From a virus, in IMG/VR virus record IMGVR_UViG_3300042887_005053, positions 124,001-188,000 of that record: a stretch of 64,000 bases of DNA. The stretch is one strand, 5' to 3'. Below the pieces are notes generated by a model. The model had not been told where the DNA came from, did not search any database, and saw only the letters and a program-made list of their open reading frames with translations. Below are positions 7,038-64,000 of the stretch, one piece after another; position 1 is the first letter of the stretch; each line of letters starts with the position of its first letter. Both the position numbers and the translations under genes were made by a program.

Positions 7038-7041
7038 AAAT

Positions 7042-7917: not shown

Positions 7918-7933
7918 GTTAAAGAAGTTTAAA

Positions 7934-7947
7934 ATTTTATATATAGT
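7934..7947 (+). promoter_or_regulatory. ATTTTATATATAGT motif
   Basis: A copy of the recurrent TATATA motif ending only three bases before the ATG at 7951. A promoter this close would give a nearly leaderless transcript for this gene, so a translation role is also possible. Confidence 0.4.
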
Positions 7948-7950
7948 GTT

Positions 7951-8646
7951 ATGGGATTTAAAGTTAGCGGTACGGTTGAACCAGTAAGTTTAGTGGATAA
8001 CTATCCAGTTATAGATCCAATGTTTGGTATTGATGGGTTGAGATGTGTCTCTTCAACATCTGAGATGTATAACCTTCCTTTGGAAAGAAGAAGAGGTGGT
8101 ATGATCGTAGGTGTTCAAGATAATATTAACACAACTACGGTTTATTATAAACTAAAACCCGGTGTAACTTGGGAGATCGGTAGTGCCAGTAACTGGGATT
8201 TGTTATTTGATTTTGGTACATCCAGTGCTTTTTATGTAAAAAAGTTCATTGCAAATGAAACACTTACTGTTCCAGCAAATTATCAGTATTTAGTTTATGG
8301 TGACTTAACTATAGCTACTGGTGGTAATTTTCAGAATGGTGGTAACGCGATAATTATTAATGGTAATTTGAATTTAGTTGGAACTGGTACTTGGTCAAAC
8401 ATTGGTTCGGGTACTCTAGAGTTAGTATCACTAGACCAAACAGCTAAATATTCCGCTACTTTTACTATACCTAAAGATCAAGGGTTTTTTACTGTTAGTC
8501 ACTTATTAAATAGTGACGACATAATTTATTCAATTAGAGATGGTAACAATATAATTTATCCAAATGTTGAAATATTAGACTCTAACAATATAGTGATAAG
8601 AACAATAGGTACTGTTAGTAATGGTAGAATTAATATAATTAAGTAA
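7951..8646 (+). CDS. Structural protein with attachment-type N-terminus
   Basis: A 231-residue protein whose first ~95 residues resemble the N-terminal domain of the 976-residue fibre at 1838 (ERRRGGMIVGVQDN, then YYKLKPGVTWEIGSASNWDL). Residues about 105-150 contain a short beta-solenoid-like stretch with regularly spaced G-N/G-T turns (LTIATGGNFQNGGNAIIING). The C-terminal ~50 residues form a small beta domain with SIRDGNNI and SNGRINI. The short length suggests an adaptor or a short fibre that shares the docking domain of its longer paralogue. It is followed two bases later by the next fibre gene. No enzymatic motif was seen. Confidence 0.7.
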   Translation: MGFKVSGTVEPVSLVDNYPVIDPMFGIDGLRCVSSTSEMYNLPLERRRGGMIVGVQDNINTTTVYYKLKPGVTWEIGSASNWDLLFDFGTSSAFYVKKFIANETLTVPANYQYLVYGDLTIATGGNFQNGGNAIIINGNLNLVGTGTWSNIGSGTLELVSLDQTAKYSATFTIPKDQGFFTVSHLLNSDDIIYSIRDGNNIIYPNVEILDSNNIVIRTIGTVSNGRINIIK

Positions 8647-18363: not shown

Positions 18364-20160
18364 ATGCCTGTTTACACCGTTTCTAATAATCCAAAGAATA
18401 TACCAGGATTAAGGTTTTGGTTGGATGCCGCTGATGAGTCGACAGTAGATTATTTTAATAAAACAATTGGTGATTTTGCTGCAAGGACATATGGTGATAC
18501 TAGTGGTATTCAAATGCCAAATCAACCGAATAGTACTACATATCCTAACTTGCAAGCAGCTTTAGATCCAATTAATGGGTTTGTTACTTTAGAAATGGGA
18601 GTTGCTTCTGCACAGGTGTTATCTCCACTACCTATGCCTGGTACAGTATCATATAACATGGTGACATCAATTAGAGATAAAATTTCAAATACACTTGTAA
18701 TTTCTACATATTCATTCACACGGGGTAATACTACCTCAAGAACGATCAGACCTAATTCGTTAATTGGTACACAATCACTAGGAAGAACCCAGTCTATCGT
18801 TGGAACAGTTAATTTGGTTGGTGATTATCGAACTATGTCAAGAAGTATGCCATATGAGTATAATATTCCAGCACGATTGTACCCAGATTCTTGGTTTGGA
18901 TTTGCAAGAAAATATCCAAGATATGAAGTAGGAGCAGTAAACGGAAAAAGTGCAATAAAATTCAACAAACCATTTCCTGGAGAAATTGGTATGATTGCTG
19001 ACAATGTAGGTTTACTTGATAGTGCAACATATACGGTTTTTTGTGTTTATGCTCCTGTCAATCCAACGAGTTCCCTACAACTAGGTGCTGGGCTAACTGC
19101 TCAAGGTCAATATGTCGTATCAATTTATGATTCTAATCGAATTTCAAGACACGGTGGATATCCTAATCTTGGATTTTTCTATGGTGATGGTAATCCTTAC
19201 AATCAATCTATTGTTGTTACAACTCAATCGACTACTTTTTCCAGATTTATAAGATGGTCAAAGAATACTATGAATACAGCAAACAGTTCGATAGTTATTG
19301 CTCAGTTTAGAAATTCGGCCACATCTTCCAATGGGATACCTTTGTATAAGATTCTTACTGAGTCGAATAATTATTTTATGTACGGTTTTACTGGTGTAGG
19401 TATTAATTCTGGATCAGGGAGTTTCTTTGATCATAGAAGAAATAACTCTAGATTTGTTATTGGCTATAATCCTACACTAGGTACAAGCTCATCACAAAGA
19501 GAGATATATAATTCGGGCCCGAAACAATTTACTGGCTACTTTTGTGAGTTTTTATATTATGATCGAGCTCTGACAGACTTGGAAATGTCAAAAGTAAATC
19601 AGTATTTAGTAAAGAAGTGGAATGGACCAGTGAAACAGTTTCCAGAAAGTTTCATGGTAAGAGACTATACTGTGACTGGTATGCAGCAAACTACCACAAA
19701 CATCAGTAATACAAATAGAACAGGTGCTTATCAATTTGAATATTTTTGGCAAACTACTGCTGGAGCACAACAAGGTAGAAATGCTACGGTCACTCCGATT
19801 TTAGTCAACACCACACAGCCAATTTTGAGTGGTACTCCGATGTATTGTAGATTGGAGATAATTCCAAATTTAGCTACTGGTAGTGCGGGTCACACGAATA
19901 CTTGGAGACATTGGGGTATTTGGTGTGGTGATACTTCTGGCACTCCATTTGGTAGCTACAGATGGAGTTCAAGAAAACCAGACTTAGTATTCAGACCTGG
20001 ATTAACCCAGGGTGTTTATGAGTCTACATTTTGTTGGCCACAGACTGGTAACTCGATGAAATGTGGTTGGGCTTCAACTTTGGGAATCCCTACTCAAGAC
20101 TACGGATGGACTTTTTCTGGTTGGATAAACATGCAGTTTGGAAACTTAGAATCTATTTAA
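18364..20160 (+). CDS. Tail fibre with concanavalin A-like (LamG-type) signature
   Basis: A 598-residue protein. The N-terminal IPGLRFWLDAADESTV motif, together with GYFCEFLYYDRALTDLEMSK and VNQYLVKKW near residues 395-420, is the typical start and end of a concanavalin A-like lectin/glucanase fold seen in many phage and Bacteroidota surface proteins. Between them are strand-rich segments with GKSAIKFNKPFPG and TVFCVYAP. The last ~170 residues (from about FMVRDYTVTGMQQTTTN) form a separate C-terminal domain rich in Trp (HTNTWRHWGIWCGDTSG), possibly the tip. Host-glycan binding is inferred. Its 3' end overlaps the convergent gene at 20146 by 15 bases, with no terminator between them. Confidence 0.78.
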   Translation: MPVYTVSNNPKNIPGLRFWLDAADESTVDYFNKTIGDFAARTYGDTSGIQMPNQPNSTTYPNLQAALDPINGFVTLEMGVASAQVLSPLPMPGTVSYNMVTSIRDKISNTLVISTYSFTRGNTTSRTIRPNSLIGTQSLGRTQSIVGTVNLVGDYRTMSRSMPYEYNIPARLYPDSWFGFARKYPRYEVGAVNGKSAIKFNKPFPGEIGMIADNVGLLDSATYTVFCVYAPVNPTSSLQLGAGLTAQGQYVVSIYDSNRISRHGGYPNLGFFYGDGNPYNQSIVVTTQSTTFSRFIRWSKNTMNTANSSIVIAQFRNSATSSNGIPLYKILTESNNYFMYGFTGVGINSGSGSFFDHRRNNSRFVIGYNPTLGTSSSQREIYNSGPKQFTGYFCEFLYYDRALTDLEMSKVNQYLVKKWNGPVKQFPESFMVRDYTVTGMQQTTTNISNTNRTGAYQFEYFWQTTAGAQQGRNATVTPILVNTTQPILSGTPMYCRLEIIPNLATGSAGHTNTWRHWGIWCGDTSGTPFGSYRWSSRKPDLVFRPGLTQGVYESTFCWPQTGNSMKCGWASTLGIPTQDYGWTFSGWINMQFGNLESI

Positions 20161-20415
20161 TAGTTCATCTAAATTTTGTTTATTAAAATCAACTAGATTA
20201 TCTCCGCCATTTTTTAGATGATTATTTAATAACTCTTGATAATCTTCATAAGTGTAAAATTTTCCATCTATACCCATAATTACTTGAGTGTCAAATTTAG
20301 AAAGTGAATTTGGTAAATTTTGCTCTGGATAATTGGGTCCCATAACATGTTGACCAACTAATTCCCAACCACTAATCGACTCATTAAATTCATTAAATTT
20401 TTTAATTTTCATCAT
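20146..20415 (-). CDS. Small protein with the shared MKxxKFxEF N-terminus
   Basis: An 89-residue protein beginning MMKIKKFNEFNES, one of about fourteen proteins here with this capsid-targeting-like N-terminus. The second Met may be the real start. The rest (for example GWELVGQHVMGPNYPEQNL, then YTYEDYQELLNNHL) is a small soluble domain I do not recognise. It overlaps the end of the upstream gene (20402-20872) by 14 bases in another frame, so the two are probably translationally coupled. If the tag works as in T4, this would be a small protein packaged inside the head. Confidence 0.65.
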   Translation of the reverse strand: MMKIKKFNEFNESISGWELVGQHVMGPNYPEQNLPNSLSKFDTQVIMGIDGKFYTYEDYQELLNNHLKNGGDNLVDFNKQNLDELLNRF

Positions 20416-20872
20416 CTGTTATAGGAATTTTTTCGAAGTACTCTTCCTGAGAAGTAAGTGAGTAACAATCGTGTTTGAAATCATAGGACAAATTATACAA
20501 AAACCTATCATATATTTTAGTAGTCTCTCCATGTTTCAATTTTAAAATTGAGACATCATTTTCAAAGTCATTATCAATTGAAATGATTTCATCATCAATT
20601 TTACCAAAACTATCATACAAATCACAGATAACTTTTTTACCAGATGATCTTAGTTCATCAATCTTAGAGCAAACATCATTTTTACTTAGATGTGAGAAAC
20701 TCATTAAATCTTTTTCCAAAACTTTGTCAAACTTAGATAGAAATTCTTCTTCTCTTTTGGTTAGTTTTTCACTTTTTGAAATTTTATCCAAAATAGAGTT
20801 AAGAGTCTCATCTTTTACAGACTCTCTCAAATTTAAATATTTCGACCATTTTGTAAATGTCATAATTTTCAT
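20402..20872 (-). CDS. Small protein with capsid-targeting-like N-terminus
   Basis: A 156-residue protein starting MKIMTFTKWSKYLNLRES. It resembles the shared N-terminal tag, and L-R-E/S fits the (L/I)-x-E cleavage rule of T4 gp21-type prohead proteases. Residues about 20-75 are charged and helical (TKREEEFLSKFDKVLEKDL). Residues 85-150 look like a small beta barrel (SGKKVICDLYDSFGKIDDEI, then VSILKLKHGE). The function is unknown. It is transcribed divergently from the gene at 20940, and each has its own TATATA motif in the shared 67-base gap. Confidence 0.65.
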   Translation of the reverse strand: MKIMTFTKWSKYLNLRESVKDETLNSILDKISKSEKLTKREEEFLSKFDKVLEKDLMSFSHLSKNDVCSKIDELRSSGKKVICDLYDSFGKIDDEIISIDNDFENDVSILKLKHGETTKIYDRFLYNLSYDFKHDCYSLTSQEEYFEKIPITDDEN

Positions 20873-20875
20873 ACT

Positions 20876-20894
20876 TAAAGTATATATTAAAGAC
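20876..20894 (-). promoter_or_regulatory. TTTAATATATACTTTA motif (minus strand)
   Basis: Read on the minus strand this is GTCTTTAATATATACTTTA, one of the best copies of the recurrent motif. It ends 3 bases before the ATG at 20872. Confidence 0.45.
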
Positions 20895-20901
20895 TTAAAA
20901 T

Positions 20902-20917
20902 TATTTTATATATAACT
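20902..20917 (+). promoter_or_regulatory. ATTTTATATATAACTT motif
   Basis: Plus-strand copy of the motif, 22 bases before the ATG at 20940 and back to back with the minus-strand copy at 20876-20894. The pair forms a divergent start region. Confidence 0.4.
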
Positions 20918-20939
20918 TAATTAAATATGTTTAATAATA

Positions 20940-23411: not shown

Positions 23412-23440
23412 ACTTAGAGATTTATTTTTATATAATTTAG

Positions 23441-23863
23441 GTGAATATTTTTAAAAAAATAATAACATACAGAAAGTATAGAACTTCTATTTCTAAAATA
23501 GAAAGAGAACTATCTACTCAATTTAACATTCGAATCGATAGTGTTGGTAGATTATATACAGTTTTGAATATTCCTGAAGAAATATTTGAAGAACCGTATA
23601 ATATGAGAAAGTCTGACATTGATACTATTGCTCAGAATTACATAAAAGAGTATTCTACTAACTTATCGGTTTTCTTAAATAAGAATGACCTAATCGAGTT
23701 GTATGATTTTTATAGTATACAAAAAGTTGAAAAATATAGTTATCTTTTGATTTTTGGATTTTCTCTTATGAATACCGAAAAGTTCTTTAAAAGATTATAT
23801 TTCAGAGTAATTCCAATAGTTTCGATCATATTACTATCAACACTTTTTTTTCTTATTTTCTAA
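23441..23863 (+). CDS. Small unknown protein with C-terminal membrane segment
   Basis: A 140-residue protein with a GTG start at 23441 (I see no better ATG in frame upstream). The body is charged (SKIERELSTQFNIRIDSVGR). Residues about 118-140 form one hydrophobic helix (VIPIVSIILLSTLFFLIF) that runs to the C-terminus, so it is a candidate tail-anchored or tail-associated protein. It follows the tape-measure candidate by 29 bases, with an AT-rich TTTATATAATT stretch just before the start. I do not recognise a family. It could be a tail-associated chaperone or connector, or a host-membrane protein. Confidence 0.6.
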   Translation: MNIFKKIITYRKYRTSISKIERELSTQFNIRIDSVGRLYTVLNIPEEIFEEPYNMRKSDIDTIAQNYIKEYSTNLSVFLNKNDLIELYDFYSIQKVEKYSYLLIFGFSLMNTEKFFKRLYFRVIPIVSIILLSTLFFLIF

Positions 23864-30860: not shown

Positions 30861-32237
30861 ATGTTTATGACTAAAATATCAAATTATTCACAATTTATAA
30901 CAGAAGCATTTCTAAATAAAACACAAGAAAAAGCTATTGACACTATTCTACAATACCTTAAAAAGAAAATAGGTGTTGATTTTTATTCATATGAAGAAAT
31001 ATGGAACATTCAAAAAAGTGACGAGTTTCTTAAAGGTCAACTTTTTTTAACTCTATCATCAAATAAAGCAATTAGATTTAACTGGATCGAAAGAGACATA
31101 TCAAGTGAGATACATTCAATAGATCTATGGACTGATTTTGAATTTGATTCTAATCCTGACTTCACTTTACTATTAAATGAACTTTCGGTTGTTAAGGCTT
31201 TGCCTCATGTAGTAGACTTTTATAAAAATCCAGAAATAATAGTAAAAACAAGTAAGAAAGATGTAGTATTTGAAGATTTAGAAATCGAGGATACTGATCC
31301 AAGAAAAAGACTTGAAGATGAAAGAAAAAAACTATCAAGATTAAGAAGTCCTGAGAAAATTGAACTTCAGAAAAGAAAAATAGAAAGAATAGAAGCAATT
31401 GTTGCACAAACTGAAAACTCTTCTATTGAAAGTGAAAAAATAAATCAACTTGATGATGAAATGAAAATTGATGTTTTTAAATCAATCGAACTTTATACTA
31501 CTCAAGTTGCAAGAGGCAAGTCAAACTCATTGATTATATCTGGTGATTCGGGTGTTGGAAAGACCCAAACCGTGAAAGATACCTTAACTTCACTTGGTAT
31601 GAGAAAAGATGATGATTATTATTTTGCAACTGGTACTGCAACAACAGCTGGTTTATATGAATTACTATTTAAGAACCGAAACAAACTAATTGTATTTGAT
31701 GACTGTGATTCGGTATTAAAAGATCCAGAATCGGTCAATATATTAAAAGGAGCACTTGATACCTATGATGTTAGAGAAATATCTAAATTATCGAAAGGTA
31801 ATACTTTTGATTCATCTGGATTAAGTGATGAAGAAGTTGATGTCCAGTTTAGCGAGACTGGTAAGTTTCCAAATAAATTCGATTTTACTGGACAAGTAAT
31901 ATTTATATCGAACTTACCAGAAAATAAATTTGATAAAGCACTATTATCGAGAAGTTTACATGTTGATGTGCATTTAGATAGACAAGAATTATTCGAAAGA
32001 ATGAAGTCTATAATGACAAGAATATCTCCAGATGTAGATTTTGAGAAGAAACTGGAGGCATTAGAATATTTAACTTTTATATGTAACACTTATCCAACTA
32101 AGTTTGATCTTAATATCAGAACATTAATACATTCAATCAATTTGAGAGCTCATAATGAAGAAATGATTAAGATTGGTGACAAAGAAGAACAAGTTTGGAA
32201 AGTTTTAATTAAAAAATATTTGGTTAAGTCAAGATGA
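30861..32237 (+). CDS. AAA+ ATPase with capsid-targeting-like N-terminus
   Basis: A 458-residue protein. From the second Met it begins MTKISNYSQFITEAFLN, close to the T4 internal-protein tag MKTYQEFIAEA, with I-T-E/A matching the gp21-type cleavage rule. Residues about 145-190 are a charged coiled coil. A P-loop (SGDSGVGKTQTVKD) sits at about 227, Walker B (KLIVFDDCDSVL) at about 275, and a sensor-1-like FISNLPENKFDKALLSR at about 350, giving a standard AAA+ ATPase core, followed by a helical lid. The substrate is unknown. It heads the cluster of tagged genes and overlaps the next gene by 4 bases. If the tag is functional, this ATPase is packaged in the head. Otherwise it could be an assembly or host-takeover ATPase. 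Confidence 0.8.
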   Translation: MFMTKISNYSQFITEAFLNKTQEKAIDTILQYLKKKIGVDFYSYEEIWNIQKSDEFLKGQLFLTLSSNKAIRFNWIERDISSEIHSIDLWTDFEFDSNPDFTLLLNELSVVKALPHVVDFYKNPEIIVKTSKKDVVFEDLEIEDTDPRKRLEDERKKLSRLRSPEKIELQKRKIERIEAIVAQTENSSIESEKINQLDDEMKIDVFKSIELYTTQVARGKSNSLIISGDSGVGKTQTVKDTLTSLGMRKDDDYYFATGTATTAGLYELLFKNRNKLIVFDDCDSVLKDPESVNILKGALDTYDVREISKLSKGNTFDSSGLSDEEVDVQFSETGKFPNKFDFTGQVIFISNLPENKFDKALLSRSLHVDVHLDRQELFERMKSIMTRISPDVDFEKKLEALEYLTFICNTYPTKFDLNIRTLIHSINLRAHNEEMIKIGDKEEQVWKVLIKKYLVKSR

Positions 32238-32812
32238 AACATTTAGAACTATTTGAATCATTCACTCTTATTAGTGAGAATCTGAAATATCATGTTGATA
32301 ATAATATTCCGGTTTTAGAGAATGTGTTTAGACCACATTCAAAAGCTTTTTATGATTTGATAAAAGAAGCAAGAAATCTATTTGATGGTGGTAAAATTGG
32401 TGTATCAGAACATGATAAACATTTATTTGAAACAACCGATTTAGGTTACTTTGATATATTTGAGAATGAAGTAGTACCACTTGATTTACCGATTGAAGTT
32501 GTTGAGGAAGTAAATGAGGCTGAGTATCACGGAAAAGAAGTTGAATTAAATAAACCAATTAGAAGTTCTGGTCCTAAAAAATATAAAGTTTATGTCAGGA
32601 ATCCTAAAACTAAAAAAGTTATATGTGTTAATTTCGGGGATGTGAAAGGTGGACTAACTGCTAAAGTAAGTGATCCAGATGCTCGTAGAAGTTTTGCTGC
32701 TCGTCATCAATGTCACCTAAAGAAAGATAAGACAAAGCCTGGTTACTGGGCCTGTCGTGCGAATAGATACGCTAATTTGTGGGGTGGTAAAACATATCCC
32801 GGATACTGGTAA
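32234..32812 (+). CDS. Tagged protein with conserved Arg/Cys/Trp C-terminal domain
   Basis: A 192-residue protein starting MKHLELFESFTLISEN. It carries the shared tag, with I-S-E/N as a candidate protease site. Residues about 30-105 are acidic. Residues about 112-192 form a compact basic domain: KYKVYVRNPKTKKVICVNFG, a DPDARRSFAARHQCH motif, then TKPGYWACRANRYA. I have seen this pattern (VNFGD, RRxxFxARHxC, GYWxCR) in head-associated and hypothetical proteins of many large phages, but I know no proven activity. The paired Cys and His could bind metal. ATGA overlap with the ATPase gene indicates translational coupling. Confidence 0.72.
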   Translation: MKHLELFESFTLISENLKYHVDNNIPVLENVFRPHSKAFYDLIKEARNLFDGGKIGVSEHDKHLFETTDLGYFDIFENEVVPLDLPIEVVEEVNEAEYHGKEVELNKPIRSSGPKKYKVYVRNPKTKKVICVNFGDVKGGLTAKVSDPDARRSFAARHQCHLKKDKTKPGYWACRANRYANLWGGKTYPGYW

Positions 32813-32826
32813 AAATATATAGAACT

Positions 32827-33735
32827 ATGAAATACTTAAATACCTACAAATTATTTGAATCAGAAGAAGTAGTAAGCAACGAAGAAGTTACTGAACTAAT
32901 TGAAGAGTGTAAAGACATTGTTGAGACATTCAATGAGTCAGAAGATACTTTTAAAGTAGCTAATTATGAAACGGGATTTGTTGCATATGACTCTTATTTG
33001 AAAAGAATAAGAAGTGGTGACTTTGACTCGAGACAGTCACATGAATCTGATATGGCTGCTATTAAATTTAATCTTGGTTTATCAAGTGATTTGAGTAACG
33101 GATATTTTAGAGATAACGAAGAAAGTGTTACTACAGAAAAAATAGACGGATTAATTGAACTATTGAGTAAATCGAAGATACTAGTTCAGAGATTGTCGAG
33201 ATATTGTACTACAATTTATTATAAAATGACAGGTAACTCAATTAGATTCATTTTAATATTCAAAAATCCAGATGAGGGTAGTAGTAAGGCAGCAAAAGTT
33301 ACAAGATTATATAACAAGCTATCAAAAGATTTTAAAGATTATGACATGTGGAAAACTATGAATTTGGTTCAACTTAATCAAAGATCAAATGATAGAATTC
33401 CAGAAAAATATAGAGAGTTATATAGTTTACTTAAAACTAATCCTAATCTAATTGATGGTAGATATGGTCAATGGGATGAAACAAGAAGAAGTAATTTACA
33501 GTTAAGATTTTCTTGTTCTGAAACATTTGATGGTAATACAATTATTGTTAATGTCACTGGATTCAAATACAAAACATATATGATGGATAGATTCAAATCA
33601 ATTAGATTATCTAATGAAGAGAAAGTAGAAGCAATGAAATGCATCGAACAGAAAGTTAAAAATAGTTTAAGAAGTGATGCCGATTCAATTGAAACTTCAA
33701 TTGAAGGAAATCAGATAAAAATTAAGGTGAAATAA
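32827..33735 (+). CDS. Tagged protein of unknown function
   Basis: A 302-residue protein starting MKYLNTYKLFESEEVVS, the shared tag with L-F-E/S as a candidate cleavage site. Residues about 15-60 are acidic helices. The middle contains RYCTTIYYKMTGNSIRFILI and the end SIRLSNEEKVEAMKCIEQKV. It looks like a soluble alpha/beta protein without a motif I can name. A TATATA motif lies in the 14-base gap before the start (AAATATATAG), and its stop shares a base with the next ATG. Confidence 0.68.
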   Translation: MKYLNTYKLFESEEVVSNEEVTELIEECKDIVETFNESEDTFKVANYETGFVAYDSYLKRIRSGDFDSRQSHESDMAAIKFNLGLSSDLSNGYFRDNEESVTTEKIDGLIELLSKSKILVQRLSRYCTTIYYKMTGNSIRFILIFKNPDEGSSKAAKVTRLYNKLSKDFKDYDMWKTMNLVQLNQRSNDRIPEKYRELYSLLKTNPNLIDGRYGQWDETRRSNLQLRFSCSETFDGNTIIVNVTGFKYKTYMMDRFKSIRLSNEEKVEAMKCIEQKVKNSLRSDADSIETSIEGNQIKIKVK

Positions 33736-33974
33736 TGAAATACTTAAAGAAGTTTGAAGGATTTTCTAACAGAACTTGTGATAGATGTGGCGAGCGAACT
33801 AATACAATGAGTATGTCCTGGTTAAACACAGATGAGTGTTGTATGAATTGTTTAGAAATTGAAAAAGGAGAACCAGATTATATTTTGGCTAAAGAAATAG
33901 AATCCGAAGAAGTTAGAAAAGGTAATCTAAACTATAAAGGTATAAGAAATGAAGATAAACTGACACCGAGATAG
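33735..33974 (+). CDS. Tagged zinc-ribbon-like small protein
   Basis: A 79-residue protein starting MKYLKKFEGFSNR, the shared tag. Immediately after it come CDRCGER (two Cys, C-x-x-C) and, about 20 residues later, CCMNC, which could make a four-Cys zinc ribbon. The remainder is charged and has a LAKEIESEEV helix. Small zinc ribbons usually bind nucleic acid or protein, and the partner here is unknown. It overlaps the previous gene by one base (TAATG). Confidence 0.68.
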   Translation: MKYLKKFEGFSNRTCDRCGERTNTMSMSWLNTDECCMNCLEIEKGEPDYILAKEIESEEVRKGNLNYKGIRNEDKLTPR

Positions 33975-33988
33975 AGAAGACTATATTA

Positions 33989-34002
33989 TTAATATATAAT
34001 TT
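33989..34002 (+). promoter_or_regulatory. TTAATATATAATTT motif
   Basis: Motif copy ending right before the ATG of the HNH endonuclease gene at 34003. Confidence 0.4.
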
Positions 34003-35124
34003 ATGAATTTAGAAATAATTTATAAAAAAATATGTCAAAGAGGTCAAATAAGAGTATTAGATAGATCCATCTATACAGAAAAACATCATATTATTCCGAG
34101 ATGTATGGGAGGTAACAACAATAAGGAAAATATAACTAAATTAACCGCTAAAGAACATTTTATCTGCCATAAAATTCTATGTAAAATTTATCCATCCAAC
34201 GAAAAGTTAAGATATGCCTTTTGGGCAATGTGTAATCAAAAAGTAAATAGAGATTATGTGGTTTCTAGTAGAGATTATGAATATGCTAAAACAATTTGTT
34301 TAGAAATGTGGAGAAGACCAAAATCCCCCGAATCCATAAAAAAAGGAGCAGATAAAAAAAGAGGCATAAAGGTAAATTATTTTATTTACCCAAAACGGAT
34401 ACAAGATGGTAATTCTAATCACAATCACGGTAAAAAGTGGATAACTAATATTTTAACAAGTGAATCAAAAATGATATTTGGTGATATTCCAGATGGATGG
34501 AAAATAGGAAGATCAAAAGTTGGCAGTTTGTGCAAACCAAATTCAAAAGGTAGAAATTGGTATCATAATCCAGAAACAAATGAAGAAAAATACTTCAATT
34601 TTTCCGATAATCCACCAGGATGGATTAAGGGTAGATCTAAAAATAAAAAAATTGGAGGAGATAATCTCTCCGGTAAGATTTGTTATTTCAACAAATCACT
34701 AAATAAAGAGAAATATTTTAAAGATGATGATATAATACCAGATGGGTGGATCAAGGGTAAGTTAAAAAAAAGAATTTGGTTTTATAATCTTGAATTAAAT
34801 ATGGAAAAATTATTCACTGAAGATTCCGCAGATGTTGGTTTTATTCGAGGTAGATTACCTAAATTACCATTTAGTGAAGAAATGAAAGAAACAAATGAAT
34901 TTATAAGAATTTTTAAAAGAGACATAGATGAAAAATCACTTGTTTGGCATAGAGATAGAGAAGATAGAATTATTGAGTCGATTGGTGAAACTGATTGGAT
35001 GATACAATTAGATAATGAACTGCCAAAGTCGTTAAATCAAAAAGTGTTCATTCCAAAAGGAGTTTATCATAGAGTTATAAAAGGAACTAATAATTTGAAA
35101 ATAAAATTAATTAAATTAGTTTAA
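34003..35124 (+). CDS. HNH homing endonuclease fused to a cupin-like phage domain
   Basis: A 373-residue protein without the shared tag. Residues about 24-55 hold an HNH nuclease core (EKHHIIPRCMGGNNNKENIT, then EHFICHKIL). Residues about 143-285 contain four ~35-residue repeats ending in a GW-(I/K)-x-GR-type motif, the DNA-contact arms typical of phage homing endonucleases. From M294 on, the sequence changes to an unrelated domain, WHRDREDRIIESIGETDWMI, then PKGVYHRVIKGTNNLKIKL. I recognise this cupin-like pattern from stand-alone small T4-type phage proteins. M294 (base 34882) starts MKETNEFIRIF, which could be the remains of the tagged start of that gene. The nuclease therefore seems to have inserted into the 5' end of a resident gene and fused with it in frame. 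Confidence 0.82.
   Translation: MNLEIIYKKICQRGQIRVLDRSIYTEKHHIIPRCMGGNNNKENITKLTAKEHFICHKILCKIYPSNEKLRYAFWAMCNQKVNRDYVVSSRDYEYAKTICLEMWRRPKSPESIKKGADKKRGIKVNYFIYPKRIQDGNSNHNHGKKWITNILTSESKMIFGDIPDGWKIGRSKVGSLCKPNSKGRNWYHNPETNEEKYFNFSDNPPGWIKGRSKNKKIGGDNLSGKICYFNKSLNKEKYFKDDDIIPDGWIKGKLKKRIWFYNLELNMEKLFTEDSADVGFIRGRLPKLPFSEEMKETNEFIRIFKRDIDEKSLVWHRDREDRIIESIGETDWMIQLDNELPKSLNQKVFIPKGVYHRVIKGTNNLKIKLIKLV
34432..34853 (+). repeat. Four DNA-arm repeats in homing endonuclease
   Basis: Units KKWITN...DGWKIGR, NWYHN...PGWIKGR, KICYFN...DGWIKGK and RIWFYN...VGFIRGR, each about 35 residues. They are diverged in DNA sequence. Confidence 0.7.
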
Positions 35125-35134
35125 TATATAGAGT

Positions 35135-35716
35135 ATGAAACATTTGAAATTATTTGAAGAATTTATTGATTTCAACTTAGATTGGGTATCAGCCAAAATG
35201 AATGAACTATCAGATTTGGTATCTGATTTTTCAAATATTGAGTTTAAATATCATATTGAAAAAGTCAAGGATAATGAAGATTTACAGGGTCTTTTAGTTA
35301 TAGAACTTACAGCGACTGATGCGAACATAACTCTTATATGGACTATTGATTTAGACTCTCCATCAATTACTATTGAAGAAATTGAAGGTGATGAACATGA
35401 AAATATTTATGATTCAAAACTTGAAAGTATTGAACAAGCTCTTGATTTAGTTGAGAAAAATATACAAGATTTATTTGATATTAATGAGAGAGTCAAGGCT
35501 CAAAGATATAAAGGAAAAAAAATACCTGGTAAATACTTAGCTGGACCACATCCTGGAAAAATGAAGAAGGAAATTGATAAGTATAGAGGTAAAAGTGAAT
35601 ATAAAAAAGAATGGGATGCTGATTATACTACTGGAAAAGGTGGTAAAGGTAAAAGAGTAAAAACTAAGAAATCATCAGCCACAAAAGCTTACCAAAAAAT
35701 GTTTGGTGATAAATAA
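35135..35716 (+). CDS. Tagged protein with basic C-terminal tail
   Basis: A 193-residue protein starting MKHLKLFEEFIDFN, a full match to the shared tag, with L-F-E/E as a candidate protease site. Residues about 15-125 are acidic alpha/beta sequence (LIWTIDLDSPSITIEEIEGD). Residues about 130-193 are strongly basic and Gly-rich (KGKKIPGKYLAGPHPGKMKK, then GKGGKGKRVKTKKSS), ending KAYQKMFGDK. A basic tail suits DNA contact in a filled capsid. The TAATATATAGAG motif fills the 10-base gap from the previous stop. I recognise the tail style from other phage proteins but no defined function. Confidence 0.68.
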   Translation: MKHLKLFEEFIDFNLDWVSAKMNELSDLVSDFSNIEFKYHIEKVKDNEDLQGLLVIELTATDANITLIWTIDLDSPSITIEEIEGDEHENIYDSKLESIEQALDLVEKNIQDLFDINERVKAQRYKGKKIPGKYLAGPHPGKMKKEIDKYRGKSEYKKEWDADYTTGKGGKGKRVKTKKSSATKAYQKMFGDK

Positions 35717-35727
35717 AAATATATTTC

Positions 35728-36288
35728 ATGGAAATTAAGAAATTTATTCGTCAAGAAAAAACTACAAATGTAGAAAAACCACAAACAAGTGGAACAGTAA
35801 TCACTCCTTCAAAGTTGACTGAAGAAACCATTTCAATTTTGACTGAAAGAATAAAAGATGAGTATACTGCTCACTATTTCTATAGATCAGCTGCTAACTG
35901 GTGTCGTAACATGAACTATAAAAAAGCATCACAATTCTTTGATAATGAATCAAGTTCAGAATTAGAACATGCTAAAGGATTACAAGAGTATATGGATGAC
36001 TTTAATGTTCAACCACATATTCTACAAACAGAAACAAACTTTGAGTTTGATTCATTAGTTGATATTATAAATGGTGCATATCAAATGGAACATTCGTTGA
36101 TGAATTCATATAATCAAAGTTCATCAGCATTATTTACTACTGACTTAACTACATTTGATTTCTTAGCTAATTATAGAACAATTCAAAAAGAAGCTGTAAT
36201 TGAGTATTCTGATTTATTGAATGCATTAATGTTAGTAAATCATACTGATAAGTTTCAGGTTCTTTATTTTGAACAAACATATTTTTAA
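35728..36288 (+). CDS. Ferritin-like protein
   Basis: A 186-residue protein. Residues ~1-30 (MEIKKFIRQEK, a weak version of the shared tag, then a Thr/Pro linker) precede a four-helix ferritin core. Iron-site residues can be placed: E45 in RIKDEYTAHYFYRS, E78 and H81 in the ExxH of SSELEHAKGLQEYM, E121 in YQMEHSL, and acidic residues E155 and E159 in the last helix (IQKEAVIEYSDLL). The length fits bacterial non-haem ferritins plus an N-terminal extension. Known ferritins oxidise Fe(II) with O2 or H2O2 and store the mineral in a cage of 24 (12 for Dps-like). It sits among tagged genes, 4 bases before a Cys-rich gene. Whether it stores iron for the infected cell or is packaged is inference. Confidence 0.82.
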   Translation: MEIKKFIRQEKTTNVEKPQTSGTVITPSKLTEETISILTERIKDEYTAHYFYRSAANWCRNMNYKKASQFFDNESSSELEHAKGLQEYMDDFNVQPHILQTETNFEFDSLVDIINGAYQMEHSLMNSYNQSSSALFTTDLTTFDFLANYRTIQKEAVIEYSDLLNALMLVNHTDKFQVLYFEQTYF

Positions 36289-36292
36289 TACA

Positions 36293-36553
36293 GTGAAATA
36301 CTTAAAGAAATTTGAAGCATATACATTCGAGGACTTTACTCTCAGTGATATTGAAGATGTTAAAGATTTGTTAGAATATGGTTTGCCTATTGAACAAATT
36401 GCGATAGAATTAGACTTTACGGTCGATAAAGTGAAACAAATAGTTCACTCTATTGAAAAGAATAAAAAAACGACTACAAAAGGATGTGGTTGTTGTTCAG
36501 ATTGTACCGGTGAAGTGGATTGTGAATGTGGTTGTGTTGAGTGTGAATGCTAA
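36293..36553 (+). CDS. Tagged protein with helix-turn-helix-like and Cys-rich parts
   Basis: I place the start at GTG 36293, not the upstream in-frame ATG 36269, because translation from GTG begins VKYLKKFEAYTFEDF, the shared tag, and avoids overlap with the ferritin gene. The product is 86 residues. After the tag comes a helix-turn-helix-like segment (YGLPIEQIAIELDFTVDKVK). The last 24 residues contain nine Cys in closely spaced CxC/CxxC pairs (GCGCCSDC, then DCECGCVECEC), metallothionein-like. Metal binding (Zn, Cu or Fe-S) is likely from this composition. Its place next to a ferritin-like gene suggests a metal-handling pair, which is inference. Confidence 0.7.
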   Translation: MKYLKKFEAYTFEDFTLSDIEDVKDLLEYGLPIEQIAIELDFTVDKVKQIVHSIEKNKKTTTKGCGCCSDCTGEVDCECGCVECEC

Positions 36554-36571
36554 AAATTAGTTACTATAAAC

Positions 36572-36579
36572 TATAAATA
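36572..36579 (+). promoter_or_regulatory. TATAAATA, identical to the T4 late promoter box
   Basis: An exact TATAAATA lies 10 bases before the ATG at 36590 (CTATAAATAAAATTATT). T4 late genes use this box as the -10 recognised by gp55. Here it may be a variant of the TTTAATATATA motif. Confidence 0.45.
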
Positions 36580-36589
36580 AAATTATTAT

Positions 36590-36961
36590 ATGGAAAAATT
36601 AATGACATTCGAATCTTTCTCTGATGAAATAGATTATGAAAACTACTACTATTTAGTAGAAGATATATTACTACTTGAAGAAGTAACAGCTGGGTCAGTT
36701 GATACTGCTGGGTCAAAAGCATCAAAGATGATAAAAAAGAAATCAGAACAAAGTGGTATTCCTGTTGGAATTCTTAAAAAGGTTTATAAGCGAGGGCAAG
36801 CTGCTTGGAATGCTGGTCATCGTCCAGGTACACCACAACAAGCTTGGGCTACTGGTAGGGTAAATAGTTTTATAACTGGTGCTGGTGGAGCTAGAAAAGC
36901 TGACAATGACTTATGGGCAAAAGCTAAAGCTGCTAAAGCTAGAAAAAAGAAGAAAAAATAA
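36590..36961 (+). CDS. Tagged protein with DUF5824-like basic domain
   Basis: A 123-residue protein starting MEKLMTFESFSDEIDYEN (tag variant), followed by an acidic ~20-residue stretch. Residues about 45-123 match a domain I recall as DUF5824 from many phages: SGIPVGILKKVYKRGQAAWN, then GHRPGTPQQAWATGRVNSF, TGAGGARKADNDLW and a terminal poly-Lys run. The domain is basic and probably binds DNA or the head interior. No activity is established to my knowledge. Its stop overlaps the next ATG by one base (TAATG). Confidence 0.75.
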   Translation: MEKLMTFESFSDEIDYENYYYLVEDILLLEEVTAGSVDTAGSKASKMIKKKSEQSGIPVGILKKVYKRGQAAWNAGHRPGTPQQAWATGRVNSFITGAGGARKADNDLWAKAKAAKARKKKKK

Positions 36962-37425
36962 TGAAATACTTAAAAAGATTTAATGAAAATTTAGATAATA
37001 ATTCTTATAAAATTCATATACCCGAAAAATATTCAGGGGTTAGAATGGAATTTGGGGAATTTGCCTCACCACAAGACATAATTGATACGTACAATCAGAT
37101 AGTAGAAGAAGGAGTTCCTTTGGTAAGTTATTCCGAGGATGGGTTCTTCACTAATGAAGATGATGAAGAAATTGAAGAGTTTATAATTCTTGATGAATTG
37201 AATTATGCTATTGTTGGTGAAGAAGAAGATAATATGGGAGATTTACCAAAACAAAAAAGATTTGGTGATGGTAATGAAAATGAAATCTATTTAACCAATA
37301 ATGTAAGATTCCACCGTAAAGGGAATGAGTTAACTTTAAGTTACACCCCAACTAAAATTGGAGGGGGACTTAGAATATCTGATGAACAGAAGAATATGTT
37401 AATTGATTTTTTAACCAAGAATTAA
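36961..37425 (+). CDS. Tagged acidic protein, function unknown
   Basis: A 154-residue protein starting MKYLKRFNENLDNNS, the shared tag. The rest is acidic (GFFTNEDDEEIEEFIILDEL, then GEEEDNMGDLPKQKRFGDGN) with a C-terminal alpha/beta segment (LTLSYTPTKIGGGLRISDEQ). I recognise no family. It is the last gene of the plus-strand tagged cluster and is followed by a short degraded coding remnant and a terminator. Confidence 0.65.
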   Translation: MKYLKRFNENLDNNSYKIHIPEKYSGVRMEFGEFASPQDIIDTYNQIVEEGVPLVSYSEDGFFTNEDDEEIEEFIILDELNYAIVGEEEDNMGDLPKQKRFGDGNENEIYLTNNVRFHRKGNELTLSYTPTKIGGGLRISDEQKNMLIDFLTKN

Positions 37426-37541: not shown

Positions 37542-38675
37542 TTATTCGGATAGCCCTTTATAGTTATCATCATATATCTTTACAACCTCATTAAATTCTT
37601 GTAAGACACCATTTTTAATTTTATCTGACTCGTACTTACTTCCATTTATATATTCTCGAATCATTTCTGTATACTCTAATTGTATAGTTGGAATAACTCC
37701 TTCATCAAATTCATCGGTACTAAGTTCTTCGGTAATTATTTCTCCGTTTTCAGCTTTTTGTAATACAATATCGTCTAAATACTCAACAGAAGCAAAGTTT
37801 CCTTGTTCAAGCATAGCTTCTAATTTTCTTCTTAGTTTTCTGTTATTTATTAACAAAGAATTGGAAATAAATAGATCAATATAGTCCTTTGTTGAAACTG
37901 AATCTAACGAAAGAATATCATCTTCTGACTTTAGATATACTTTCTTGAATTTCGGTGAAACATTATTTGGAATAAATCTTTCTGTATTTTCAATCACATC
38001 TAAAATAAAAATTCCTTTTTGATTTCCTAAATCATTTCTATCCATTTCAAAAAGATTACCAACAAAAGTAAAATTTTTATTTACTTGTTTAAGATGAATA
38101 TGTCCACTGTATACTGATCTATATCCACTAAATTCTTCAACATCAATTTTGTCGTGGTTCTTATGTGCAACTGATGTTAAATGCATTTTAGCTCCATTTA
38201 GATCTGAGTGACAAAATAGATAATCACAACCACTAAATTGTTTTAGTATTTCAATTTGATTTTTTCTTTTCTCTACCCAGGGTAACATAAGAATAGACTT
38301 TCCCATAAAATCTATTTTAGTTGGTTCTTCATACACGGTAACACCTGGAATATATTTATAGAGTTTAACTGTATTTACATCATTGGTAGCCTTTGTATAT
38401 AAATCATGATTTCCAATAATGATGTGAACTTGACAAATTTTGGCTATTTCCTCTAAAAGATTCTGAGCATAATTAAGAATATTGATGGGTATTACTGACC
38501 TATTGTCAAATAAGTCACCAAGATGTACAATAATATCATCTTTAGTTAATTCTTTTCTAAGAAGTGGTAGAAGAAAATCGTTGAAGTATTCTTGATGAAC
38601 TTTGAACCACTTATCGACAGAGTTAGGGTAGCCAAGTCCTAAGTGGGTATCACCAACCAGTAATATTTTAGACAT
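37542..38675 (-). CDS. SbcD/Mre11-type nuclease, T4 gp47-like
   Basis: A 377-residue metallophosphoesterase. All core motifs are visible: GDTHLG (residues 8-13), HLGDLFDNR (about 51-59), GNHDLY (about 88-93), HSDLNG, and SGHIHLKQ (about 190-197). These are the metal ligands of the Mre11/SbcD family. The C-terminal ~130 residues are the capping and partner-contact region. In T4 the equivalent, gp47, acts with the ATPase gp46 in DNA end resection, recombination-dependent replication and host DNA breakdown. No gp46-like gene is in this window. It is transcribed alone on the minus strand, opposite to the flanking late genes, and shares its 231-base upstream region with the tail tube gene. Confidence 0.88.
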   Translation of the reverse strand: MSKILLVGDTHLGLGYPNSVDKWFKVHQEYFNDFLLPLLRKELTKDDIIVHLGDLFDNRSVIPINILNYAQNLLEEIAKICQVHIIIGNHDLYTKATNDVNTVKLYKYIPGVTVYEEPTKIDFMGKSILMLPWVEKRKNQIEILKQFSGCDYLFCHSDLNGAKMHLTSVAHKNHDKIDVEEFSGYRSVYSGHIHLKQVNKNFTFVGNLFEMDRNDLGNQKGIFILDVIENTERFIPNNVSPKFKKVYLKSEDDILSLDSVSTKDYIDLFISNSLLINNRKLRRKLEAMLEQGNFASVEYLDDIVLQKAENGEIITEELSTDEFDEGVIPTIQLEYTEMIREYINGSKYESDKIKNGVLQEFNEVVKIYDDNYKGLSE

Positions 38676-55116: not shown

Positions 55117-55692
55117 TCACTTTTTGGTGAACTTATTAAAACGATAAAGATCAATTCTCTTCTTACTAGCCATTAAATCATCTTTGAAGACCTTTAGTTT
55201 ATCCTTGGCTATTTTTTCTAAGTTGACTATTTCCATTTGAAGTTTAGAAATATCCTGTGTTTTTTGACGAATCTTATCCTCAGTAAGTTTGATATTAGCT
55301 GAAAGAGAATCCTTTGAACTTGGATTTGCTTTTATATTGGATTGTTCGTCACTGATATCTGTTTTCCAGTCTTTAATCTGATCCTGTAGATTCTTCAAAT
55401 CTCTTCTTTTATCACAAGATTGTGCCCAAATCGCTAAAACTGGGTTATGAAATTTCAATTTCTTTTTATTATCAGTTTTATCAATTATTTTTTGAGCAGC
55501 TAATTTATCGATTAAGTCTTTTTCATCTTTATAAGTCATATAAATGTTATTTACTGTAACTTTAAGTCTGTCAAAATCTTTGATTTGATTTTCAAGCTCA
55601 TTATATCTATTCATGTCCGATGCGATCTGAGGTGGATCGGTTTTATCAGCATTGTATAATTCTAAAATAAATTCTTGAAAGTACTTAATCAT
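55117..55692 (-). CDS. Tagged coiled-coil protein
   Basis: A 191-residue protein beginning MIKYFQEFILELYNAD, very close to the T4 internal-protein tag (YQEFIAEA), with I-L-E/L as a candidate protease site. Residues about 30-70 and 100-175 are long charged helices with heptad-like spacing (LQDQIKDWKTDISDEQSNIK, then KLQMEIVNLEKIAKDK). The end is basic (RFNKFTKK). A rod-like scaffold, core or internal head protein is plausible. It starts one base after the stop of the upstream 935-residue gene, so the two form a unit. The role is inferred. Confidence 0.65.
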   Translation of the reverse strand: MIKYFQEFILELYNADKTDPPQIASDMNRYNELENQIKDFDRLKVTVNNIYMTYKDEKDLIDKLAAQKIIDKTDNKKKLKFHNPVLAIWAQSCDKRRDLKNLQDQIKDWKTDISDEQSNIKANPSSKDSLSANIKLTEDKIRQKTQDISKLQMEIVNLEKIAKDKLKVFKDDLMASKKRIDLYRFNKFTKK

Positions 55693-55693
55693 A

Positions 55694-58501
55694 TTAAATT
55701 ATGTCAAAATCATTCATTTTAGACCTCATTTTATCCAATCCTAGAATATCATATTTAGGTCTATCATCTGGATCAATCACTTTTATAGTCTCTAACTTAC
55801 CCTCTTGAACATTGTTCTTAGAAAGAGCTTCTATTTTTTGAAAGTTCATTTTTAGATCTTGTATATTACTAAAAGTGTTATTAGATGTAACTTCAGCGAC
55901 TTTCATCTCAATAACTCTGTCTTTTGACAATTTAGGATATTTATTTATGTTGATTACTGCTACGAATAAAGGTTCATTAGGTACAAAAGATAGATTTTTT
56001 GGTAACTCCAACTCTTTTGAATCAAGTTTATTTTTCAAGTAAGTACTAAAGATTGATTGTTTTGGAGTTTTTTCATATTTATGAAACTTAATAACAATTC
56101 CTTTATCTCTAGTTCCATTAATTTGACCTTGTATAAATCCAATCAAATATTTGGTAACTTTATCTTCCTTATAAGTAATTTTGAAAAATTCTCTACCGTA
56201 CTTATCATCCTTACCGAAAAGACTTGTCACTATATCAGCTCCTCTTCCAAGTTGGCTATAAAGTGAGAACACTAATTGCTTTTCACTACCCATGTCATCT
56301 TTCTTTATTTTTCCTGGACCTGGTTCTGGTGTATCAGATGTTTTTTCTATGTCACTATTTCCCCCAAAATAATCAGTCAGTAATCTATGTCTCTTAGATC
56401 TGAAATCTCTATCTTTACCACCAGATCCTAACATATCATTAATAAAAGTAAATAAAGTCCTACCTGAGCCAGCTTTTTGATTAGGTCCTCTATTTTTGAA
56501 TTTCGCATTTGCTAATATTTTTCTGTACTTTGTATCTTCTAATAGTTTCATAATACCATCTTCCCATTTTTCAAATGGAACATTAGCTGCCCAGGGTCCA
56601 ACTGATGGACCGGCATCTTTTGACCAAGATGGATATTCACCTTTTCCGATATATGTGTACTCTCTAAATGTTTTCTGAGAAATCACGCCGTTTGGTCTAC
56701 CAGAGGGTATGACCTCAGTTGCATACATTTTATATGCTCTGCCAAAGATATTCACGATTCTAATGATGTTGTCTTTGAAAGATTCAGCGTCAATCTCTAT
56801 TTCTTTTTCTTCTAACTCTTTATCTGTATCTTCTTGGAGTTTTTTAGCTTCTTTTTCGTCGATTTTCCATTCATCTTCTTCTCCCTTTTTGAAGAATTCA
56901 AACCAAATAGTTGATATTTTATCATTTATCAGTTCCTGATCAGACTTCGAGGCTTGTTCATCTTTGTCAGTATCTTCATCAGTTTCCATTTCAATATCAT
57001 CTGCTTCATTTACAAAAGAAAAATAGTTATGTATAAATGATTCGTTCTTTTCTTCTTTATCTTCTTTTTTCTCCTTTTTAAGAGAAGGATAAAGCTTTTT
57101 AAGTTGATTAAAAGATTTTATGAACTTATTAAGACATTCTTTTGCATCAGTAAGTGCGTTAACTAGTCCCATATCTTCTCTAAATGCAAGAATTATTCTA
57201 GCTATTAGTGAAATTGACTTCGAAATATCACTATATGAAATAGATTGTTCAGCTTCTTTAATTAGTTCTTCAAAAGAAATTGGCTTACCAACAGTTGCTT
57301 CATTCATTACGACTTCTCTACCTATTTTTGTGATAGTATCTACAATGATTGCATTGTTTGTTTTTGATTTAGTAAGCAATTCTTGAATTCTTGGTAATGT
57401 TTTTATAATGCCAGATTTAGACCACGAGTTTAATACTTTATTCCAAGCTGCTCTCGCATTTGACTCCGCTAACTTCAATTCTGCTTCTTCAAATATTGGA
57501 AGAGATTCATTTTCATAAAATAAAGATTCTGCGACTTTTTCACCAGCTTTGAGTGTTGTAACTTGTAAAGGTCTGCCATCGGGTCCTTTCTTTGTATCTG
57601 AGTTTAGTATAGGTGTGAGAGAATCTCTACGAACACTCATCGGTGCTGAGTTTGGTAGATATGATTTAGTCTTCTCATCCCTAAAAATAACAAAAACATT
57701 GGGTTTGATTGTACCTGATTGAACAACATCATCTTTAGTTAAGAACTTTTTGTCAATTCCTCTCTTCACAGCATGTTCCAGAGAAATGACTAAAACAGTA
57801 GTTTTTTTGCCATCTTTTGATTTGTGTGTATATTCTTTACCTACTTCGATTGATTTCTCTGAAGTAATCTTCTTTTTTGAAATGATTTCATTCAAGTCTA
57901 ATATGGATTCTAAAAGATCAATTGTAGTTTCATAGAACTCTTTATTTGAGCTTGTTTCTTCTTGTTTTTCTTCTTCCGATTCTTTTGGTTCAAAATCGAT
58001 TTCCAATAAAGCTTTTCTATAATCTTCAAGTTTTTTTACTAATAAATCTTTATTAGGTAAGTCTTTTTTATCTACTTTCTCAACATCTTTGATTGTTGTT
58101 GAGATAAGACCAGAATCATCAGATTTATCACCTAATAATATTGTCAATTTTTCATCAATCTCTTTGTTTGAAGTAGATTCTTTATAAACCTCTGTTATAA
58201 GAAATTTTACTTTTATTTTTTCTATTTCTTTTTTAGTATTTTCACCAAATGCAGAAGCGGCTATTAAATTATTTAATTCATTTTCAACATCTTTTACTAA
58301 AGAACCAATTCTAGCAGCTTGAAAATAAATTTTACCTTTTCTGATTGTTGAATTGATTAATCTACCTAATAGAGATCCTCCCCAGGTTATATCATTTTCA
58401 AAAGCTTCCTTTATTAATAAAGAAGATTCGAAGTCCTTTTGATTAAATTCAGTTCTTGTTTCTTTGATTAAAAATTCTTGTCTGTGCTTGAGATATCGCA
58501 T
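55694..58501 (-). CDS. Large tagged protein, possible packaged or processed protein
   Basis: A 935-residue protein starting MRYLKHRQEFLIKETR, the tag with I-K-E/T as a candidate cleavage site. A second I-K-E/A follows at residue 32. Residues 175-200 and 470-580 are strongly acidic, Glu/Lys-rich linkers. Three more folded parts are suggested: about 220-330 (KEYTHKSKDGKKTTVLVISL), about 590-760 (GSGRTLFTFINDMLGSGGKD, then FRSKRHRLLTDYFGG), and about 770-910 (LVFSLYSQLGRGADIVTSLF). Internal tag-like pieces (FIHNYFSFVNEADD near residue 495) raise the idea of a protein cut into several parts. I see no known catalytic motif. An internal head or ejection protein is a reasonable guess only. Confidence 0.68.
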   Translation of the reverse strand: MRYLKHRQEFLIKETRTEFNQKDFESSLLIKEAFENDITWGGSLLGRLINSTIRKGKIYFQAARIGSLVKDVENELNNLIAASAFGENTKKEIEKIKVKFLITEVYKESTSNKEIDEKLTILLGDKSDDSGLISTTIKDVEKVDKKDLPNKDLLVKKLEDYRKALLEIDFEPKESEEEKQEETSSNKEFYETTIDLLESILDLNEIISKKKITSEKSIEVGKEYTHKSKDGKKTTVLVISLEHAVKRGIDKKFLTKDDVVQSGTIKPNVFVIFRDEKTKSYLPNSAPMSVRRDSLTPILNSDTKKGPDGRPLQVTTLKAGEKVAESLFYENESLPIFEEAELKLAESNARAAWNKVLNSWSKSGIIKTLPRIQELLTKSKTNNAIIVDTITKIGREVVMNEATVGKPISFEELIKEAEQSISYSDISKSISLIARIILAFREDMGLVNALTDAKECLNKFIKSFNQLKKLYPSLKKEKKEDKEEKNESFIHNYFSFVNEADDIEMETDEDTDKDEQASKSDQELINDKISTIWFEFFKKGEEDEWKIDEKEAKKLQEDTDKELEEKEIEIDAESFKDNIIRIVNIFGRAYKMYATEVIPSGRPNGVISQKTFREYTYIGKGEYPSWSKDAGPSVGPWAANVPFEKWEDGIMKLLEDTKYRKILANAKFKNRGPNQKAGSGRTLFTFINDMLGSGGKDRDFRSKRHRLLTDYFGGNSDIEKTSDTPEPGPGKIKKDDMGSEKQLVFSLYSQLGRGADIVTSLFGKDDKYGREFFKITYKEDKVTKYLIGFIQGQINGTRDKGIVIKFHKYEKTPKQSIFSTYLKNKLDSKELELPKNLSFVPNEPLFVAVININKYPKLSKDRVIEMKVAEVTSNNTFSNIQDLKMNFQKIEALSKNNVQEGKLETIKVIDPDDRPKYDILGLDKMRSKMNDFDII

Positions 58502-63937: not shown

Positions 63938-64000
63938 ATGAATAGAATATCAACTTATCAGCAATTTAATGAGGAAATTTTGGGTGGATTAGGAGACAAG
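63938..64000 (+). CDS. Start of another tagged gene, cut by the window end
   Basis: The last 63 bases encode MNRISTYQQFNEEILGGLGD before the window ends. The first 14 residues match the shared tag and are close to the T4 tag (TYQEFIAEA). It follows the terminase by 11 bases. T4-type head genes often lie in this region, so a head protein is possible, but nothing more can be seen. Confidence 0.6.
   Translation, partial: MNRISTYQQFNEEILGGLGDK

Follow-up and report, generated by a model that had tools for sequence, protein, structure and literature searches.

The stretch of viral DNA considered here, bases 124001-188000 of the 204,336-base IMG/VR record IMGVR_UViG_3300042887_005053 (the record is called G000 below, and the whole 64,000-nucleotide stretch the window), encodes a series of otherwise unrelated proteins that share a short N-terminal tag with the consensus M-K-[YH]-[IL]-K-x-[YF]-x-x-[FYW]. 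This tag is very probably a capsid-targeting sequence of the phage T4 type, used as a general address label in a clade of giant phages. According to the proposed mechanism, its aromatic pair (positions i and i+3), usually preceded by a basic and aliphatic lead, would dock the protein into the prohead core, where a gp21-type protease that carries a helical repeat, the probable scaffold, in the same chain would cut after [ILVF]-x-E; the mature cargo freed in this way would be packed into the head together with the DNA and pass into the host on ejection. These steps of docking, cleavage, packaging and ejection are proposed from sequence comparison, which is best read as pointing to a T4-type system that has grown to more than ten times its size in T4 and is linked to the protease–repeat fusion.

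G000 is a fragment of a giant phage, because its tail sheath matches giant-phage genomes, with 56-58% identity to the uncultured phages LR745206 (635 kb) and LR756502 (642 kb) and 44% to LR756504 and LR756501, followed by Lak, Tenacibaculum and Flavobacterium phages. Its relatives are uncultured phages of 634-735 kb; the LR records we take to be members of the published huge-phage set. The rest of G000 was read together with the window, open reading frames (ORFs) being called mechanically, and LR756502, the nearest full genome, was read completely.

A single rule covering three subtypes of the tag was applied to ATG-started ORFs only, and the expected counts were taken at methionines within those proteins. 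The tag starts 30 of 198 ORFs in G000 (1.7 expected, p=1e-15) and 139 of 848 in LR756502 (12.2 expected, p=1e-52), a surplus over chance of about 130 proteins in the latter. With the same rule, LR745206, LR756501, LR756504 and LR756500 are likewise enriched; a comparable excess was not seen in Lak-A1, pT24, MaF61, HTVC008M and GAP32, and P-SSM4 is borderline (3 tag starts, 0.3 expected). T4 gives 7 tag starts against 3.2 expected, and a narrower detector, serving as a positive control, retrieves ipI, ipII and ipIII from it together with two small ORFs. A 54-residue ORF of T4 (NC_000866, 18966, minus strand) has a start, MKTFKEFIKEDM, that agrees with the leader of the internal proteins, and could be a further protein of this class, a remnant or a coincidence.

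The first-pass annotation of the window had listed fourteen tagged proteins, and all the N-termini that it quoted were found in the sequence. Eleven of the fourteen fit the rule at ATG (20415(-), 20872(-), 30867, 32234, 32827, 33735, 35135, 36590, 36961, 55692(-) and 63938), the one at 36293 is tagged via a GTG start, and that at 58501(-) is weak, while the ferritin-like protein at 35728 (MEIKKFIRQEKTTN) was dropped, as it is without the aromatic pair. Tagged genes do lie in the region 30867-37425, as annotated, but are not limited to it, about 19 being found elsewhere in the 204-kb record. It had also been claimed that the proteins diverge completely after the tag, and clustering agrees: 31 mature bodies fall into 31 clusters in G000, and 140 tagged proteins of LR756502 into 122, including one 13-member paralogue family. 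Expansion of a single gene family as the origin of the tag was rejected on this clustering, save for the 13-member family. In LR756502, the subtype YK[IL]FE/S (a slash marks the cut, predicted for the giant phages) is very common, and [FY]NE/[SN] with close variants has 26 members against 1.1 expected. Tagged genes are densely packed at 11-90 kb of this genome, and the MKHLKTYKIFES subtype accounts for many of them; in the first 40 kb, 28 of the 84 ATG ORFs carry the tag.

The internal protein IPIII of T4 starts with MKTYQEFIAE/A, and mutagenesis, as reviewed, has assigned targeting to residues 4 and 7 and processing to residues 8 and 10 (PMC9026906). Like IPIII with its residues 4 and 7, the tag has two aromatics three positions apart (i and i+3) close to the protein start. 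The motif [FY]xx[FYW][ILVM]xE corresponds to all four specificity positions with identical spacing. In the clade, N-termini show this motif eight times as often as protein interiors do. Its occurrences concentrate at indices 4-6, with 10, 12 and 23 genes; the other positions have fewer than one each. The suggestion that the tags carry gp21-type cut sites is borne out as well: of 208 tags, 104 have an [ILVM]xE site no more than 12 residues after the aromatic pair, as against 164 of the 1100 look-alikes from protein interiors (p=4e-26). The sites peak at +4 (KIFE/S type, 18% of tags vs 1.5%) and at +6 (T4 type, 16% vs 2.3%). The T4 scaffold protein gp22 contains the sequence motifs SIFE/S, ELFE/S, LIAE/A and WLAE/N as candidate sites.

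A gp21-type protease, whose absence the first-pass annotation had named as a finding that would refute its proposal, is encoded at the end of G000. The PF03420 (Peptidase_S77) profile gave no match at first in G000, and the gene was found by tblastn with the LR756502 protease as a truncated ORF of 528 residues (record positions 202752-204336, outside the window), 74% identical over the shared part. The contig ends inside this gene; IMG/VR contig L133, whose overlap with the end of G000 is identical over 7,687 bases, holds the full protease of 709 residues (6103-8232), with the capsid protein gene after it. The protease matches phrog_207, head maturation protease (E=2e-31), and PF03420 (E=6.7e-4, below the curated cut-off), and the three best PDB matches of its AlphaFold model in Foldseek are T4 gp21 (5JBL, E=3e-6 to 1e-5, prob 1.00). 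The mean pLDDT of the model is 54, poor in the protease part, and only the repeat helix and the gp21 match were used. The protease belongs to the gp21 (Peptidase S77) family and fold. In LR756501, a second, short gp21-type paralogue of about 180 residues (11386-11787, minus strand) lies far from the head gene cluster.

The protease and a helical repeat array are encoded by a single ORF. Residues 235-435, after the protease, form one predicted helix (pLDDT about 55-76) built of 14-residue units, I-[AS]-Y-S-E-Y-[LI]-A-E-[NH]-L-D-K-N, with the core YSEY[IL]AE/N. Among 396 units from 36 proteins, delimited by period and not by motif, the two tyrosines are kept in 360 and 387, and the [LIV] and glutamate positions in all 396. 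The array has 10-13 copies in all 80 IMG/VR relatives, and tandem repetition of the motif occurs in no other protein of the genomes read. The array is probably the scaffold, since it comes after the protease, is predicted to be helical and presents cut sites in regular succession. The N-terminal segment of the clade capsid protein ends in HSINE/NAY or similar, [IML]xE/N, a candidate propeptide site.

Tag and repeat have a common core: an aromatic, two residues, an aromatic, an aliphatic, any residue and Glu. As background, 1.6% of the [ILV]xE sites inside proteins have an aromatic pair ahead of them, so coincidence is not negligible, but it is plausible that the tag imitates the core of the scaffold repeat. 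A copy of the whole repeat is unsupported, since a 14-column repeat profile showed no preference for cargo N-termini (3 in G000 and 2 in LR756502 of the best 30); the core spacing alone is shared.

The tagged proteins with known domains in G000 are a T4-type RNA ligase 1 (PF09511, E=2e-21; PDB matches 9DO4, 2C5U and 5TT6), a CCA-adding/poly(A) polymerase head (PF01743, E=3e-32), a polyphosphate kinase PPK2 (E=3e-78) and an nrdC.10-like ATPase, to which LR756502 adds NUDIX, SET, GNAT, HNH, ankyrin, methyltransferase, glycosyltransferase and SLT transglycosylase domains. PHROG families number 35 in the tagged set against 79 in a length-matched untagged sample, which includes UvsX, clamp loader, SbcD, PhoH and endolysin. 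The RNA ligase appears to be the clearest case of a removable tag: eleven tagged orthologues keep aromatic-x-x-[FY][ILVM]xE/[SN] before a common mature start (that of L218 is irregular), and the untagged ligases of LR756504 and LR756501 begin at the mature start, just past the predicted cut. In the AlphaFold model of the ligase, the tag is predicted as a short helix of very low confidence outside the body. T4 Rnl1 repairs tRNA cut by the host anticodon nuclease, and the shipping of an RNA ligase together with a CCA-adding enzyme would therefore fit a defence against tRNA-cutting immunity. More tentatively, and with the odds in our judgement somewhat against it, more than a hundred different proteins might be shipped per host, including this tRNA-repair set and polyphosphate kinase, under a label whose core imitates the repeat unit of the protease scaffold, so that the cargo would co-assemble with the core and be cut free.

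Several observations weigh against a T4-type targeting function. A recognisable [ILVM]xE at the expected distance is present in only about half of the tags, and the tagged proteins are slightly acidic, contrary to the basic T4 internal proteins and to the basic proteins listed among the cargo at first. LR756504 and LR756501 have the repeat scaffold yet an untagged RNA ligase, from which it follows that a given enzyme need not be packaged. Genes and start codons are the mechanical ORF calls of this analysis, and no virion proteomics for these phages was found.

Packaging could be limited to the subset with the full motif (Y/F xx F/Y [ILV]xE), YKIFE/S and FNE/S being a separate signal or the relic of a lineage-specific gene family. 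We consider this unlikely, although the subtypes are unevenly distributed among the phages and LR756502 has its paralogue family, since both subtypes stand on unrelated bodies and their cut sites recur in T4 gp22 (SIFE/S, ELFE/S) and in the clade capsid proteins (NE/N). A more improbable alternative is that the tag directs proteins elsewhere, to a replication compartment, a membrane or a host partner, its likeness to T4 being convergent. Some giant phages do have compartments that import selected proteins (PMC13282480), but convergence would have to account for the recurrence of all four T4 specificity positions at identical spacing, for the excess of cut sites after the tag, and for the same kind of site in the protease repeat array and the capsid protein; moreover, replication proteins are absent from the tagged set of known function, UvsX, clamp loader and SbcD being among the untagged controls. 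Least credible of all is a DNA or RNA element (a promoter, ribosome binding, unstructured early codons) or a trace of 5′-end recombination with protein likeness as a by-product: the genome has 32% GC with AT-rich tag codons, and 15 tagged genes of LR756500 have some upstream bases in common, but a DNA-level origin was rejected on codon usage and upstream bases, and orthologues that differ in sequence keep the residue pattern (MKIYTFNQYLKES / MKKLHRYNSFIKES).

Synonymous codons in the tag are used at about the background frequencies of the genome, and the bases upstream of tagged genes in LR756502 are no more conserved than those before untagged genes, so selection acts on the residues. Orthologous tags keep their pattern despite different letters, as in MKIVKNYSDFVSKINES vs MAIIKKYNQYIKKINED, and tag status agrees between reciprocal best hits of G000 and LR756502 (13 both tagged, 118 neither, 8 discordant; odds ratio 102, p=7e-12). 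With the IPIII spacing, the excess of cut sites, the gp21-type protease and gp23-type capsid protein with matching sites in the lineage, and the lack of a similar excess in the other gp21-type phages tested, this conservation of residues and between orthologues supports the T4-type targeting function that had been proposed in the first place; it stood up to nearly all the computational tests applied. The tagged genes of the window are collected in Table 1. Outside the window, G000 has a broad metabolic gene set, unusual for a phage and judged by eye only, which is listed there as well.

Table 1. Tagged genes of the window and selected genes of G000 outside it (a slash marks the predicted cut)
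Position	Strand	Feature	Evidence and remarks
20146..20415	-	Tagged protein MKIKKFNEFNE/S (second Met)	LR756502 orthologue MAIKSFKSFNE/E
20402..20872	-	Tagged protein MKIMTFTKWSKYLNLRE/S	Orthologue MEIMGFKKFIKHYLLGE/S
30867..32237	+	nrdC.10-like AAA ATPase, tag MTKISNYSQFITE/A, predicted cut after I-T-E	phrog_1250 E=1.5e-35; LR756502 orthologue 57% identical, tag MKIKKYQAFYE/A; no relatives found in IMG/VR scan
32234..32812	+	Tagged protein MKHLELFESFTLISE/N	Tag rule; body phrog_7595 E=1e-11
32827..33735	+	Tagged protein MKYLNTYKLFE/S, YK[IL]FE/S subtype	Tag rule
33735..33974	+	Small Cys-rich tagged protein MKYLKKFEGFSN, possibly metal-binding	Sequence
35135..35716	+	Tagged protein MKHLKLFEEFIDFN	Weak relatives in LR745206 and LR756502 with related N-termini
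36293..36553	+	Small tagged protein VKYLKKFEAYTF, GTG start	Sequence
36590..36961	+	Tagged DUF5824 protein MEKLMTFESFSDE	PF19141 E=3e-14
36961..37425	+	Tagged protein MKYLKRFNE/N, FNE subtype	Tag rule
55117..55692	-	Tagged protein MIKYFQEFILE/L, the window's closest to T4 IPIII (MKTYQEFIAE)	Motif comparison
55694..58501	-	935-residue protein, weak tag MRYLKHRQEFLIKE/T with R for the first aromatic; membership doubtful	Sequence; matched by neither Pfam nor PHROG
63938..64000	+	Start of tagged protein MNRISTYQQFNE/E; ORF continues past the window to record 188414	Tag rule
G000 record 119840-121000 (-)		PPK2 whose N-terminal extension has one tag-like motif at residue 1 (MKLKPFNTFLNE) and another at residue 32 (MRLNTYRDFILE)	
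G000 record 6089-7972, 20362-23654, 37654-37980, 55417-56370, 62286-66097, 115079-116425, 197373-198506		DnaK-, topoisomerase-, Fe-S carrier-, PRPP synthetase-, CarAB-, PurB- and glutamine synthetase-like genes	By eye

The tagged proteins resemble T4 IPI, IPII and IPIII in the N-terminal 10-20 residues with aromatics at i/i+3 and (L/I)xE, in unrelated mature bodies and in a gp21 protease in the lineage. They differ in the extra lead residues (M-K-x-L-K), in two further tag subtypes, in cargo that includes large enzymes, in slightly acidic bodies and above all in number: T4 has three such proteins plus Alt, while about 30 are present on the fragment and about 140 in the complete LR756502, a set wider than that of T4, as the first-pass annotation had supposed, and larger than the one it listed. 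The protease has the fold and family of gp21, and the array, like gp22, is a long helical scaffold candidate rich in [ILV]xE sites; however, protease and probable scaffold are here one protein of 700 residues, with 10-13 units that have the core spacing of the tag, whereas gp22 has no aromatic-pair repeats of that kind before its sites. In phage P1, N-terminal residues of DarB suffice to carry a reporter into the capsid, but the Dar proteins are few and without a shared consensus (PMC9024508). The giant phages phiKZ and SPN3US package many head proteins processed by a gp21-type protease, nine cleaved substrates being known in SPN3US, but their propeptides are mostly 111-254 residues long, with no short common label (PMC10052503). 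A gp22 counterpart in giant phages was reported in 2017 as unconfirmed (PMC5694885). In the papers searched, neither a capsid-targeting label in huge phages nor a protease–repeat fusion of this kind was found described.

The repeat array is a candidate scaffold for giant phages, and the tag, as a simple sequence rule, singles out more than a hundred genes without a name as effector candidates that can be tested. If the T4-type targeting function is true, this would be the largest set of co-injected proteins known to us, most of them without known function and likely acting in the first minutes of infection. Phage heads could then also be loaded with proteins by means of new address labels, and the tagged set would point to pre-made tRNA repair as an entry strategy of these phages.

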